Source of the DNA: Aquabacterium sp. OR-4
Lineage (GTDB): Bacteria > Pseudomonadota > Gammaproteobacteria > Burkholderiales > Burkholderiaceae_C
Direction of reading: 5' to 3'
Assembly (NCBI RefSeq): GCF_025290835.2
Contig: NZ_JAOCQD020000001.1
Coordinates: forward strand, 2,666,001 to 2,730,000
DNA length: 64,000 nucleotides
Part shown: piece by piece, positions 35,854 to 40,529 of the stretch
Layout: each line of letters begins with the position of its first letter
Position numbering within the stretch: position 1 is the first letter of the stretch
Made by a program: the position numbers and the translations under genes
Notes under the pieces: generated by a model
What the model saw: the letters and a program-made list of their open reading frames with translations, nothing else
Database searches by the model: none
What the model was told of the DNA's origin: nothing

Positions 35854-37689
35854 TCACCCGCATCCCGGGGATGGGGTACCACCCGGTTCAAGCAGTGCCA
35901 GCAGGGCCGGCAGGGCGTCGGCCTCGTGCAGGGGCTTGTCGGGCCGCAGGCGCAGCATGCGCGGAAAGCGCAGCGCGATGCCGCTCTTGTGCCGCGGGCT
36001 GCGCTGCAGGCCCTCGAAGCCCAGTTCCAGCACCAGGCTGGGGCGCACGCTGCGCACCGGGCCAAACTTTTCGAGTGTGTGGGCGCGGATCACGCGGTCG
36101 ACGGCCGCGAACTCGGCGTCGCTGAGCCCCGAATAGGCCTTGGTGAAGGGCACCAGCTGCAGCGCGCCGGGCTCGGCGGGCTCGCGCCGGGCGATGGCCT
36201 CGACCACCGCTGCGGCCTCGGCGGCATCACGCGGCGGGCGGTTCCACACGGCGAAGGTGTAGTCGGTGTAGAGCCCGGCGCGGCGGCCATGACCGGCCTG
36301 GGCGTAGATCAGCACGCCGTCCACCGTGAACGGCGCCACCTTCCACTTCCACCAGCCGCCAGCCACCAGACCGGCGGCCTTGGTGCGGCCGCTGCCATAG
36401 GGCGCGTCGCGGTGCTTGAGCATCAGGCCTTCGACGCCGCGCTCGCGGCTGCCGGCGCGCTGGGCGGCCCAGGTGGCCCAGGTGTCCGGCAGCGGATGAC
36501 CATCGCCACCGGCAGGCGCCACCGGCAGCAGCGGCGACAGGCGCAGCACGGCGGTATGCACGGCGGCGGCGGAAGCGCCATCGGCCGCACGGGCGTGCCA
36601 GGCCGCCAGCTCGGCTTCGAGCCGGGCACGGCGCTGGTGCTGGGGCCAGCCGCGCAGGTCGGTGCCATCGGCCTCGAGTTGGTCGTAGGCCACGAAGACC
36701 ACCGGCGTATCGGCCAGCAGCCGGCGGGTGAGGGTCTTGCGCTGGATGCGGGTTTGCAGACGCTGGAACGGCGCCGGTCGCGCGTCGCCGGCCGGCCAGA
36801 CCAGCAACTCGCCGTCGAGCACGGTGCCGGCCGGCAGTGTGGCGGCGGCCTGTTCCACCTCGGGGAAGCGGCCGGCCATCAGCTCTTCGCCGCGCGACCA
36901 CAGCCACACGCCGGCCGCGGGGCCGCTGCCGCGGCGCACCAGCTGCGCGCGGATGCCGTCGTACTTCCACTCGGCCAGCCATTGCGCGGCGGCGCCCAGG
37001 CGCGTGGTCAGGGCCTCGGGCGTGTCGGCGGCCGGCTCCAGCGCATGGGCCAGGTAGAACGGATAGGGCTGGCCCAGATCGCGCTGCCCCGGGGCATCGG
37101 CGGCGGCCAGCAGGGCCAGCAGCGCGTCGGCGTCGGGCTGGGCGCGGGCGTCGGCATAGCCCATCATGCGTTGCGCCACCAGGGCGGCGGGCAGGCCGGC
37201 GTGGCGCGCCAGTGCACGCTGCACCAATAGCTTGCTGACGCCCACGCGAAAGCCCCCGCCAATCAGCTTGATCAGCACGAAGCGCTCGGCCGGCGTCAGC
37301 TCGTGCCACCAGGCGCGCAACTGGGCGGCCTGCGCCTCGGGCGCCGCGCCGCGCAGCGGCAGCAGGCGCTGCGTCAACCAGTCGGCCAGGCCCAGCGCGC
37401 TGGCGTGCCCGGGCGGTGGCAGCAGATGGGCGATGGTTTCGGCCAGATCGCCGACGGCCTGGTAGCTGGCCTCGAACAACCACTCGGGGATGCCGGCGGC
37501 GGCCCGGGCTTCGCTGCGCAGCAGCGCGGTGGGCACGGTCTGCCGCGGCCGGCCGCCGGCCAGGAAAAACACCGCCCAGGCCGCATCGGCCGCCGGTGCC
37601 TCGGCCAGGTAGGCCACCATCGCGGCCACCTTGGCCTCGGTGCTGGTGCTGGCATCGAGCGCGGCGTACAGGGCGGCGAAGCGGCGCAT
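35854..37689 (-). CDS. ATP-dependent DNA ligase
   Basis: A 611-residue ATP-dependent DNA ligase. The N-terminal DNA-binding domain covers about residues 1-200. The adenylation motif EWKYDGIRAQL has the nucleophile Lys, then VLDGELLVW, RGVEGLMLKHRDAPYGSGRTK and WWKWK, motifs III to V of the covalent nucleotidyltransferase family, and a C-terminal OB domain. It is larger than the minimal LigC/LigE forms and fits the Pseudomonas-type ligase found next to a metallo-beta-lactamase exonuclease. The ATG overlaps the upstream stop by one base (TGATG). The usual helicase and phosphoesterase partners are not in the window. The frame extends far upstream, inside the exonuclease gene. Confidence 0.93.
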   Translation of the reverse strand: MRRFAALYAALDASTSTEAKVAAMVAYLAEAPAADAAWAVFFLAGGRPRQTVPTALLRSEARAAAGIPEWLFEASYQAVGDLAETIAHLLPPPGHASALGLADWLTQRLLPLRGAAPEAQAAQLRAWWHELTPAERFVLIKLIGGGFRVGVSKLLVQRALARHAGLPAALVAQRMMGYADARAQPDADALLALLAAADAPGQRDLGQPYPFYLAHALEPAADTPEALTTRLGAAAQWLAEWKYDGIRAQLVRRGSGPAAGVWLWSRGEELMAGRFPEVEQAAATLPAGTVLDGELLVWPAGDARPAPFQRLQTRIQRKTLTRRLLADTPVVFVAYDQLEADGTDLRGWPQHQRRARLEAELAAWHARAADGASAAAVHTAVLRLSPLLPVAPAGGDGHPLPDTWATWAAQRAGSRERGVEGLMLKHRDAPYGSGRTKAAGLVAGGWWKWKVAPFTVDGVLIYAQAGHGRRAGLYTDYTFAVWNRPPRDAAEAAAVVEAIARREPAEPGALQLVPFTKAYSGLSDAEFAAVDRVIRAHTLEKFGPVRSVRPSLVLELGFEGLQRSPRHKSGIALRFPRMLRLRPDKPLHEADALPALLALLEPGGTPSPGCG

Positions 37690-38864
37690 CAGCGGCGGCC
37701 GGGGTCGGGGTTGGGGTTGGCGCGCGCGGGGTGATCCGGCAGATCCGCGGCAGGCGCTGGTGGCGCCGGTGGCTCTGGTGGCGCTGACGGCGCCGTGGCG
37801 GCCGGCGGGCCGTCTTCGTGGCCGAACTCGGTGCGAAACGAGCCGGCGTCCAGCCCCTGCTCGCGCAGCCAGCGCACCATCACCGCTTCTTCGCCGTGGG
37901 TGACGATCACGCGCTCGGCGCCGGTGGCGCGGATGGCGCGCTGCAGGCCGGGCCAGTCGGCATGGTCGCTCAGCACGAAGCCGCGGTCGACGCCCTGGCG
38001 CCGGCGGGCGCCGCGCAGCTGCATCCAGCCGCTGGCAAAGGCGTCGCTGAACTCGCCCAGCCGGCGCGCCCAGGCACTGCCCTGCACGGCCGGTGGGGCC
38101 AGCACCAGCGCACCGGCCAGCGCCGGCAAGGCCGGTGCGGCATGGGCCGCGGCCCGCCGTGCGGCGGTGGTGCCGGCCAGGGCGTCGAGGGTGTGGGTGG
38201 GCGGCAGCGGCACGCCGGCGTCGCGGTAGGCCTGGTTGAGCGGGGCCATGGCGCCATGGACGACGATCGGGCCGATGCTGGCGTCCACCCCGGCCAGCAG
38301 GCGCTGGGCCTTGCCCAGGCTGTAGGCCATCAACAGGCTGGGCCGGCCGGCGGCGGCATTGCTGCGCCACCAGGCGTTGATCTCGGCCAACACGCTGGCC
38401 TGCGGCGCCCAGCGGTAGACCGGCAGGCCGAAGGTGCTTTCGGTGATGAAGCAGTGGCAGCGCACCGGCTCGAAGGGCGCGCAGGTGGGGTTGTGCTCGT
38501 CGTGCGCGCTGAGGAAGTAGTCGCCCGAGGCCACCCACACCCGGCCCCCATGGGCCAGCCGCACCTGGGCCGAGCCCAGCACATGGCCGGCCGGGTGCAG
38601 GCTGATGGCCACGCCCTTGTGGGTGACGGTCTCGCCATAGGCCAGGCCCTGGAAGTTGAGCCCGGCGCCCAGGCGGCTGCGCAGCAGGCCTTCGCTGATG
38701 GCGCTGGCCAGCACCTGGCCATGGCCGGCGCGGGCATGGTCGGCATGGGCATGGGTGATCACGGCGCGCGCCACCGGCCGCCAGGGGTCGATGTAGAAGT
38801 CGCCGGGCGGGCAGTACAGGCCCTGTGGACGCTCGACCACCAGGTCACCGGCCATCGGGCTCAT
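37689..38864 (-). CDS. Ligase-associated DNA exonuclease (metallo-beta-lactamase fold)
   Basis: A 391-residue metallo-beta-lactamase / beta-CASP protein. Motif 2, HAHADHAR (about residues 38-45), is followed by HPAGHVLGSAQ, GDYFLSAHDEHNP, ESTFGLPVYRW and a late HGEE segment (VIVTHGEEAVMV). This composition matches the exonuclease encoded beside bacterial ATP-dependent ligases, believed to trim DNA ends in repair. The last 45 residues are Pro/Ala-rich. It overlaps the downstream ligase start by one base. A second ATG at 38855 is possible. The MITE-like element lies just upstream. Confidence 0.92.
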   Translation of the reverse strand: MSPMAGDLVVERPQGLYCPPGDFYIDPWRPVARAVITHAHADHARAGHGQVLASAISEGLLRSRLGAGLNFQGLAYGETVTHKGVAISLHPAGHVLGSAQVRLAHGGRVWVASGDYFLSAHDEHNPTCAPFEPVRCHCFITESTFGLPVYRWAPQASVLAEINAWWRSNAAAGRPSLLMAYSLGKAQRLLAGVDASIGPIVVHGAMAPLNQAYRDAGVPLPPTHTLDALAGTTAARRAAAHAAPALPALAGALVLAPPAVQGSAWARRLGEFSDAFASGWMQLRGARRRQGVDRGFVLSDHADWPGLQRAIRATGAERVIVTHGEEAVMVRWLREQGLDAGSFRTEFGHEDGPPAATAPSAPPEPPAPPAPAADLPDHPARANPNPDPGRR

Positions 38865-38950: not shown

Positions 38951-39222
38951 CTAGTCCAGTGAAACGGAGAAATCGGATGTGCGCAGGGGTTTGGCAGGGC
39001 AGGCGACAAGGCGCGGCCCGCAGCCCAGGCTGAACGCCTGGGCAAGGGTTGCAACACCGGCGCATGCCCTGCCAGACCCCTGCCCGCAGGGTGGGCACCT
39101 GTCAGGGGAGCCCTCGTCGTTGCCGGTGCTCGCCGGGTGTCCAACCCGGCTGCGCCCGGCGCCTAGATGGCGCCCCTGACAGGTACCCACGCACATCCGA
39201 TTTCTCCGTTTCACTGGACTAG
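38951..39222. mobile_element. 272-bp MITE-like element with perfect 33-bp terminal inverted repeats
   Basis: The left end (38951-38983, starting CTAGTCCAGTGAAACGGAGA) and the right end (39190-39222, ending TTTCACTGGACTAG) are exact reverse complements over 33 bp. Inside are two further inverted-repeat stems: 38984-39001 with 39065-39082 (17 of 18) and 39093-39112 with 39169-39188 (18 of 20). Each encloses a perfect small hairpin: GCCCAGGC/GCCTGGGC (39023-39030, 39036-39043) and GCCGGGT/ACCCGGC (39132-39138, 39144-39150). No transposase is encoded, so it would need an enzyme elsewhere. CTAG at both tips may be part of the repeat or a 4-bp target duplication. The right tip holds the clsB stop codon (39219-39221). 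Confidence 0.9.
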
Positions 39223-40529
39223 TAGCGCCCGCTCATGCCGGCCAGGCGCAGGAACCAGTGCGCCGTCCAGGCCACGAAGCTGCGGCGCAGCATGGCCCAG
39301 CCGCCGGTGCCGGCCGGCGGCCGCAGCACCTCGCGCGAGACCTGCACCGCGGCCTCGAAACGCAGCGCCAGCTCGCCGGCAAAGCCGGCGTCGTGCACCA
39401 CCACATTGGCCTCGAGGTTGAGCAGCAGGCTCAGCGGATCGATGTTGGAGCTGCCCACCGTGGCCCAGTCGTCGTCGATCACCGCCACCTTGGCATGCAG
39501 GAAGGCCGGGGTGTACTCGTAGACCTGCACGCCCACGGCCAGCAGCTCGTCGTAGAGCACCTGGGCGGCCAGCGCGGCAAAGCGGTAATCGGCCTTGCCC
39601 TGCAGCAGCAGGCGCACGCGCACACCGCGCTGCGCGGCCTGGCGCAGCACGCGGCGAAAGCGCTGGCCGGGATAGAAGTAGGGGCAGACGATGTCGACAC
39701 GGCTGGCCGCGCCGCGGATGGCGTCGATGTAGGCCAGCTCGATGGCGCGGCGCTGGCGCAGGTTGTCGCGCACCAGCAGCAGCGCGCGCATCGGTGGCAG
39801 CGCGGCCTGGGTGCGGGCCTGGGCCTGATCGGCGGCATGGCGTTCGGCCCGCGGCAGGCGCAGCCGGCCGGCAATGCGGCGCGCCCGGGCCAGCGGCTCG
39901 GCGCTGCGCAGCAGCTGCTGCACCTCGTCGCGCCAGTCGGCGCCGAGCGCGGCGCGGGTCCACAGCGCGCGCGCGGTCTGCTCGACCTGGGCCACCACCG
40001 GGCCGTGCAGCATCACGGCAAAGTCGAGCCGCGGGCGGTCGGACCAGCCGTGGTTGAGGTCGTGGCGGTCGTCGATGACATTGATGCCGCCAACGAAGCC
40101 GACCTCGCCGTCCACCACGCACAGCTTGTGGTGCAGGCGGCGCAACTGGCCCGGCTGCAGCAGCCGCCACCAGCGGTCGACCGGGCGGAACACGGCCAGG
40201 TTCACGCCGTCGTCGTGCAGCCAGCGCCGCAGCGTGGGCAGGCTGGCCTTGCTGCCGAAGCCGTCGACCACCACGCCCACCCACACGCCGCGCCGCGCGG
40301 CGTCGGCCAGGGCCTGGGCCACGGCCTGTGCGGCCGGGTCGTCGTGGAAGATGTAGGTGGCCAGCCAGACTTGGCGCCGCGCGCCGGCAATGGCCTGCAG
40401 CATGGCCGGAAACAGCTCGTCGCCGCCGGCCTGCAGCGCCACCTGGTTGCCGCCGGTCAGGCGCGCGTGCAGCGCGGCGCCGGCGCCATCGGAGGTCGGG
40501 TTGGGGGGCGGCACGAGCACCAGCGACAA
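39219..40529 (-). CDS. clsB: Cardiolipin synthase B-type phospholipase D family protein
   Basis: A 436-residue protein with two phospholipase D HKD motifs: HHKLCVVDGEVGFVGG (about residue 130) and HAKVAVIDDDWATVGSSNID (about residue 350), typical of ClsB. The enzyme makes cardiolipin or related lipids by phosphatidyl transfer. It probably starts at TTG 40529, with AGGGGA 8 nt upstream; the first in-frame GTG would remove only three residues. Its TAG stop lies inside the terminal repeat of the MITE-like element, so the last residues (SGRY) may be changed by the insertion. EEP and nudB precede it in the same direction. Confidence 0.92.
   Translation of the reverse strand: MSLVLVPPPNPTSDGAGAALHARLTGGNQVALQAGGDELFPAMLQAIAGARRQVWLATYIFHDDPAAQAVAQALADAARRGVWVGVVVDGFGSKASLPTLRRWLHDDGVNLAVFRPVDRWWRLLQPGQLRRLHHKLCVVDGEVGFVGGINVIDDRHDLNHGWSDRPRLDFAVMLHGPVVAQVEQTARALWTRAALGADWRDEVQQLLRSAEPLARARRIAGRLRLPRAERHAADQAQARTQAALPPMRALLLVRDNLRQRRAIELAYIDAIRGAASRVDIVCPYFYPGQRFRRVLRQAAQRGVRVRLLLQGKADYRFAALAAQVLYDELLAVGVQVYEYTPAFLHAKVAVIDDDWATVGSSNIDPLSLLLNLEANVVVHDAGFAGELALRFEAAVQVSREVLRPPAGTGGWAMLRRSFVAWTAHWFLRLAGMSGRY

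Follow-up and report, generated by a model that had tools for sequence, protein, structure and literature searches.

MITEs are usually regarded as decayed insertion sequences (ISs) and are recognised by their sequence. Passages of two articles (PMC10969869, PMC3733652) describe the bacterial representatives as shorter than 500 bp, bounded by terminal inverted repeats (TIRs) and short target duplications, lacking a transposase, capable of a stable fold and mobilised in trans by an IS. REPINs, according to parts of PMC3116915 and PMC3733652, consist of two REPs in inverted orientation, are mobilised by RAYT and are dispersed. Mitochondrial double-hairpin elements, or repetitive hairpin-forming elements, are presented in parts of PMC2800124 as potentially mobile pairs of hairpins, and for those of Allomyces the missing flanking duplications are taken there to argue against DNA transposition.

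The element described here lies in a 64,000-nucleotide stretch of DNA from Aquabacterium sp. OR-4 (the window), where it is placed between clsB and the gene for a ligase-associated DNA exonuclease. One unit makes up both arms, as two inverted copies that have diverged. In the following list of features, bit scores refer to R1, a covariance model of the arm built from 32 arms.

38951..39222, no strand: complete element with its two arms, 272 bp counting the CTAG at either end
38951..38983, + strand: left TIR, 33 bp including CTAG, which corresponds to the outer stem of the family
39190..39222, − strand: right TIR, perfect complement of the left TIR
38952..38953, no strand: probable target duplication TA, left copy, inside CTAG
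39220..39221, no strand: probable target duplication TA, right copy; TA is also found in sister families
38983..39083, + strand: arm 1, forward unit (R1 match of 90.2 bits; this arm is among those used to build R1)
39009..39055, + strand: conserved head of arm 1, AGGCGC..GCAG..AG..GCAAC
39083..39091, no strand: mini-hairpin CCCGCAGGG separating the arms, from folding
39091..39190, − strand: arm 2, inverted unit (R1 match of 93.1 bits; this arm was also used to build R1)
39119..39164, − strand: conserved head of arm 2, from sequence comparison
39219..40529, − strand: clsB, cardiolipin synthase ClsB (NF008427), with its TAG stop at 39219-39221 in the right tip of the element
37689..38864, − strand: ligase-associated DNA exonuclease gene (TIGR04122), downstream of clsB and co-directional with it

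The initial annotation, made from the sequence of the window, had described perfect 33-bp TIRs enclosing two near-perfect inner stems with apical hairpins, and this layout is confirmed. Positions 38951-38983 are the perfect reverse complement of 39190-39222, and the inner stems pair at 86% (38978-39005 with 39061-39088) and 88% (39091-39115 with 39166-39190) of positions, each with an apical hairpin and with internal loops in both arms. The branched fold that had been proposed for single-stranded DNA or RNA is likewise supported on both strands. As RNA, the element reaches −215.3 kcal/mol (z −17.5) and its opposite strand −212.7 kcal/mol (z −16.6); as DNA, the element reaches −120.7 kcal/mol (z −16.6). 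In each case none of 200 shuffled sequences folds as well. A transposase frame is absent from the 272 bp, whose open reading frames (ORFs) of 66-99 aa overlap on both strands.

A search of the OR-4 genome, which had been suggested as a check against the element being a single copy at a fixed site, found five full copies that are 98.5-100% identical to the window copy and are dispersed, in either orientation, at different sites on four contigs. Relative to the window copy, the three others of 272 bp have zero, two and four substitutions, and a 271-bp copy is 98.9% identical, with one gap and about three substitutions. All five copies have CTAG at both ends; the target duplication is probably TA, with the 4-bp CTAG as the alternative. 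Two of the four substitutions in one copy (L004) form a single compensatory pair (16 G>C with 257 C>G). Near-identical copies in the G027 and G025 groups likewise show compensatory double changes, which were not seen among those of the G032 groups; such changes fit either selection or template-switch correction. Two remnants are present as well: a palindrome at C1:2222260-2222317 (L007), in which two TIRs stand head to head with the interior missing and which probably arose from the window's element by internal deletion, and an isolated TIR at C1:206602. The MITE-like character assigned in the initial annotation is thus upheld by five near-identical dispersed copies, by perfect TIRs and CTAG ends, by the lack of a transposase frame and, in a related subfamily, by a TIR in common with an IS5-family IS. 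R1 matches 15 places in this genome, namely both arms of the five copies, two arms at C1:1631113-1631319 and three weaker single places. The element at C1:1631113-1631319 (G000; L006, L058, L060) is a second member of the superfamily, with an unrelated TIR (GAGGGTGTCCCC..), TCA at both ends and one arm flipped.

Relatives are widespread. A DNA search of 60 genomes, including that of OR-4, gave matches in 11, those in relatives mostly to the element interior at 69-88% identity, with other sequences at the ends. With bounds set by hand, 26 of the 29 elements at these loci have lengths of 268-276 bp despite differing TIRs and stems, and the remaining three measure 171-192 bp. An equivalent of the mini-hairpin, CCCnnnGGG, is visible in most aligned elements. 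At an E value of 0.001, R1 has matches in 162 of the 399 genomes that represent the order, where 81 of 159 genera are hit, and in 89 of 369 sampled from the class, the latter sample including the OR-4 genome and a few members of the order. Scanning named genomes with a degenerate head motif yielded at least 119 stretches, 29 of them near a stretch end and 90 with enough flank. An outer stem is present in 71 of these 90 (45 elements of 258-275 bp, 17 longer and nine shorter) and absent in 19. Of the 119 motif loci, 106 entered the model searches; the 13 left out comprise L213 and L215, thought to be chance matches, L317, thought to be a repeated locus, and others cut near stretch ends. Among the matches listed, carriers of the outer stem include Thioalkalivibrio, Wenzhouxiangella, Halomonas, Pseudomonas, Stutzerimonas, Acidovorax, Delftia, Lautropia and Nitrosospira, as well as MAGs labelled Novosphingobium, Hyphomicrobiales and Desulfuromonadales, labels that may reflect contamination.

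Some relatives are found on extrachromosomal or viral DNA. The window element has no match in plasmid or phage DNA and the Delftia relative none in plasmids; the Stutzerimonas relative matches five plasmid records and no phage record. An unannotated relative of the Stutzerimonas element is located on the Pseudomonas aeruginosa plasmid NZ_CP017294.1 (L349, 3001-3269), where it lies 5 bp past the stop codon that ends an acyl-CoA dehydrogenase gene, between two co-directional genes. In the viral collection (viral_contigs), three of 21 stretches (L331, L335 and L339) hold outer-stem elements of 269-275 bp, which may travel on phages unless the contigs are host DNA; three viral loci lacking the outer stem gave no model match. 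A second type of arm head, GTTACTCGTCG..CTCCTCGCGCCTTGC or close to it, was recognised by eye in arm 2 of L222, L249, L261, L218 and L306, that is, in elements of Halomonas, Pseudomonas and Stutzerimonas, in the Novosphingobium-labelled MAG (L218) and at locus L306.

Structurally, the relatives share one plan, in which a 30-bp outer stem encloses an arm of about 100 nt, the mini-hairpin, an inverted arm of about 100 nt and the other side of the stem. In 83 of 85 elements, at least 22 of the 30 positions lying outside an inward arm pair are complementary (median 28), compared with none of 81 controls taken 400 bp away (median 11, maximum 17). This count is based on the arms alone, TIRs having played no part in the choice of elements, and the loci are distinct in sequence without having been thinned for relatedness. 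Across 84 elements, complementarity is still 0.94 at position 30 and then falls to 0.62, 0.45 and 0.33 at positions 31-33. TIR identity between these elements has a median of 0.30. Among 91 neighbouring arm pairs, 87 face inward, four are in tandem and none faces outward. The length of the stem and the arrangement are therefore kept, and the sequence is not.

Within the arms, AGGC and GCAAC are invariant in the aligned units and the arm stems covary. In the R1 alignment, 92.1% of the cells at paired positions are paired, compared with 60.7% in shuffled alignments, and the covariation score is 0.773 compared with 0.210, neither value being reached in any of 500 shuffles. Shifting the pairing partner by one to three columns lowers pairing to 33-44%. 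Double changes occur at 29 of 33 pairs, which three of 500 shuffles also reach, and the number of pair types is reached by 107 of 500; these are the two weak measures among the five compared with shuffles. The inner stems, whose lack of conservation between copies would have counted against the initial annotation, are thus conserved between subfamilies as structure and not as sequence, and its suggestion of a functional non-coding element gains weight from this conservation of the fold.

The mismatches in the arms are of a type that one strand in particular would tolerate. Read in the orientation of the head, the outer stem of 186 arms contains 226 G.T or T.G mismatches versus 67 A.C or C.A mismatches, an asymmetry with p 3e-21 if arms were independent, which related sequences are not. 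This count covers 186 of the 204 non-redundant arms (out of 272 arms overall) and the per-position count 162. The size of the asymmetry may be inflated because R1, the model used to fit alignments A2 and A3, is itself richer in G.T than in A.C; strand bias in mutation is another possible source of the asymmetry. T.G at the three positions that lie 6-8 bp away from the internal loop makes up much of the excess, and positions 9-22 sum by hand to 80 G.T and 48 A.C. Purine-purine mismatches are frequent at positions 2-4. At positions 12 and 13, where all four pair types occur, 161 and 159 of 162 arms, respectively, have a Watson-Crick pair. The outermost column, 23, is reversed (42 A.C and one T.G) and is taken as the boundary of the arm. 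By comparison, positions 1-30 of the TIR stem show no bias (58 G.T and 57 A.C, summed by hand). An excess of G.T over A.C on one strand of the arms speaks for selection acting on a single strand in its folded form, which could be RNA or single-stranded DNA.

With regard to movement, genome G213 carries a related subfamily whose TIR, TAGAACCCATTTCATAAATA or a close variant, forms 22 facing pairs spaced as in an element; among the matches listed, R1 has one inside 21 of these pairs. The same TIR forms 12 facing pairs 859 bp apart. The five 859-bp units that were read contain two overlapping frames, and the frames of one unit match PF13340, PF01609 and NF033580 (transpos_IS5_3, IS5 family transposase). 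One end of this IS is identical to that of the element over 21 bases including the TA, the opposite end departs from it at one or two of the 20 matched bases (TAGAATTC or TAGAACTC), and no arm lies within this IS among the R1 matches listed. With one end common to the element and an IS5-type IS of the same genome, mobilisation in trans may fairly be inferred there. Element copies and the 859-bp IS occur within a few kb of each other on G213:C1 at 2571792-2574730 and 3285903-3288359.

The initial annotation had proposed to look for a full-length transposon with matching ends. An IS sharing the TIR is present for the related subfamily in G213, and none was found in the OR-4 genome. In the latter, a 16-base TIR pattern allowing three mismatches hits 20 places, 13 of which (at most one mismatch) belong to the five copies and the two remnants, and none marks an autonomous partner. 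Long TIR pairs are likewise absent, with one pattern each, from G192, G027, G032, G168, G025, G042, G412 and G060; G412 and G060 have 96 and 39 TIR matches, none facing another at an IS-like distance. Thus, one of ten genomes searched with TIR patterns has a helper with a matching TIR, a figure that reflects one pattern per genome where genomes can carry several TIR types, and the other nine would need a helper that is lost, transient, differently ended or unsearched. Another TIR pattern gave facing pairs at most 310 bp apart in six genomes (30 loci examined). PF13340 occurs in three of ten carrier genomes searched. None of its 11 loci has ends matching the resident TIRs when compared by eye, and no recognisable matching TIR was found at the single copy in the OR-4 genome. 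TA is present at both ends of 75 of the 120 family elements with enough flank, and other subfamilies show, by eye and with exceptions, TNA-like triplets.

The insertion site in the window can be compared with that in relatives. The TAG of clsB, the complement of 39219-39221, does lie in the right tip of the element, as first noted. The further proposal that insertion had reset the 3′ end of the gene is not supported, since all 18 full-length clsB orthologues found in 20 other genomes of the genus end at that codon. Seventeen use TGA and one (L369) uses TAG in the same CGC TAC TAG context, and none, L369 included, has an element in the approximately 90 bases following clsB. A match to the ligase-associated exonuclease is present on the same stretch in 12 of the 18, one match being short. 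Because the end of clsB is at the same codon throughout, its position was preserved; the element entered a stop codon that already existed and kept it. The insertion lengthened the gap between clsB and the next co-directional gene.

It is near certain that the window element is a mobile DNA element without genes, and the grouping of its relatives into one fold-conserved superfamily is strongly supported. The window element is classed as a MITE of this superfamily, which is apparently undescribed. Our preferred reading, which we consider probable, is a non-autonomous transposon (MITE) whose defining and selected feature is its folded shape rather than its sequence. IS5-type transposases would bind the TIR and move the element in trans. 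Over time, the element would change its ends and thus its helpers while keeping the outer stem, the inward arms and the mini-hairpin. The inward layout offers transcripts entering from the left and from the right an arm of one and the same orientation, and this holds equally for the two transposon ends when each is read towards the interior. Covariation and the strand asymmetry support arms that act as a folded strand, the molecule and mechanism being putative: they might work as RNA in read-through transcripts or, alternatively, during transposition, as hairpins formed by single-stranded or cruciform DNA. In the window, the element entered the CTAG containing the clsB stop, inside an operon-like gene pair, with the stop preserved. 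Counting against this reading are the helper seen in one genome of ten, the occurrence of PF13340 in three of ten carriers, the four pairs with a flipped arm among 91, the reversed bias of column 23, the two weak shuffle measures, the second type of arm head and, in a small sample, the lack of orientation bias among one-armed elements. Template-switch correction could also produce part of the perfection of the stems.

The best surviving rival emphasises RNA. The element would then be a structured module at gene 3′ ends whose folding in read-through transcripts alters mRNA stability, processing or termination, its symmetry supplying a correctly oriented arm for either direction of insertion. 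The prevalence of G.T over A.C accords with this explanation, as does placement in or near stop codons. In 34 of 75 TA-flanked elements the target TA is part of a stop codon, as at clsB in the window, versus 14.0 expected from other TA sites in the same context, where ORFs of at least 100 codons were called in the joined empty site; this excess counts for the preferred reading too. Since these ORFs are uncurated and long antisense ORFs are common in GC-rich genomes, the result is to be read as an enrichment and not as a count of genes. The 75 elements yield 54 natural ORF ends, six interruptions and eight unclear sides, and the copy on the P. aeruginosa plasmid, 5 bp past a stop codon and between co-directional genes, is a further case. 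However, the bias toward gene ends may reflect just TA targets and selection, and one-armed elements show no orientation bias relative to the neighbouring gene end (eight sense versus six antisense, a small sample; six more have gene ends on both sides and four have none). In addition, no Rfam family scores above the gathering threshold for the window region or 13 loci, and folded DNA also tolerates G.T and G.A mismatches. We regard an RNA module as possible, with the balance tilted somewhat against it.

Rather more doubtful is a module that acts as DNA structure, in which the arms are extruded as hairpins from single-stranded or cruciform DNA and bound at each transposon end by a transposase or a host protein. 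The inward arms, the nearly invariable 30-bp outer stem and the TIR stem without wobble bias all accord with such a module, yet arms are flipped in four of 91 pairs and one-armed elements share TIRs with two-armed ones (L032). Known IS5-type transposition also uses double-stranded ends. An ordinary MITE, that is, a decayed IS5-type derivative mobilised through its TIRs and carrying arms as passive filler kept perfect by recombination or template switching, is unlikely: although the TIR common to element and IS in G213, the compensatory changes between near-identical copies and the unbiased TIR stems all suit it, the same arm heads, inward layout and mostly the same length stand behind unrelated TIRs across the class, the mismatch tolerance of the arms is strand-specific, and the arm is not seen in the 859-bp IS among the matches listed.

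The reading of a MITE selected for its folded shape can be extended to a selfish lineage across the Proteobacteria whose identity is its fold, which swaps TIRs between IS transposases and rewrites its paired stems, and which carries a conserved module of folded single-stranded RNA or DNA that is advantageous independently of the helper. We place this extension just below an even chance. A class-wide family with unrelated ends and stems but constant stem length, arm orientation and arm heads would escape sequence-based repeat searches and would imply selection on a folded strand. Such a family allows a direct test of whether a fold inside a transposon promotes its movement or makes insertions at the ends of genes easier to tolerate, and of how non-autonomous elements switch helpers.

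Several known systems resemble the family in part. Integron attC sites are defined by paired RYYYAAC/GTTRRRY boxes; attC was rejected by eye, with the AAC of GCAAC facing the AGGCG strand and not GTT in the consensus structure. Sub-threshold Rfam microRNA matches (four in the window region and one across the 13 loci) were rejected as generic long hairpins. Titles and abstract beginnings of open-licence PMC literature contain nothing recognisable as this family, which closed literature or ISfinder may describe, and parts of a prokaryotic MITE review (PMC10969869) and of a REP survey (PMC3733652) describe no such family. Mitochondrial hairpin elements belong to organelle genomes, and a link to TIRs or ISs is not described for them in parts of PMC2800124. 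REPs and REPINs likewise present an inverted pair of hairpin units and are dispersed, but REPs are 20-40 bp long with a GTAG or CGTC tag, in contrast to units of about 100 nt inside TIRs of about 30 bp with TA or TNA-like duplications. With size and ends differing and the outer sequence of the arms variable, the REP-like assignment also offered in the initial annotation finds no support.

The IS5-family IS of G213 encodes a transposase and the element does not. To our knowledge, bacterial MITE families are defined by sequence and named per genus or species. The window element is under 500 bp and has TIRs, a duplication at both ends and dispersed copies; a TIR shared with an autonomous element is seen in G213 and, with one pattern each, not in the OR-4 genome or eight others. 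Correia/NEMIS, ERIC, RUP, Chunjie and QMITE fall in the same size class and also have TIRs, short duplications and dispersed copies. Unlike those MITEs, the elements described here have TIRs and stems that are unrelated between subfamilies, whereas the stem lengths, the arm heads and, for the most part, the overall length are fixed across families.
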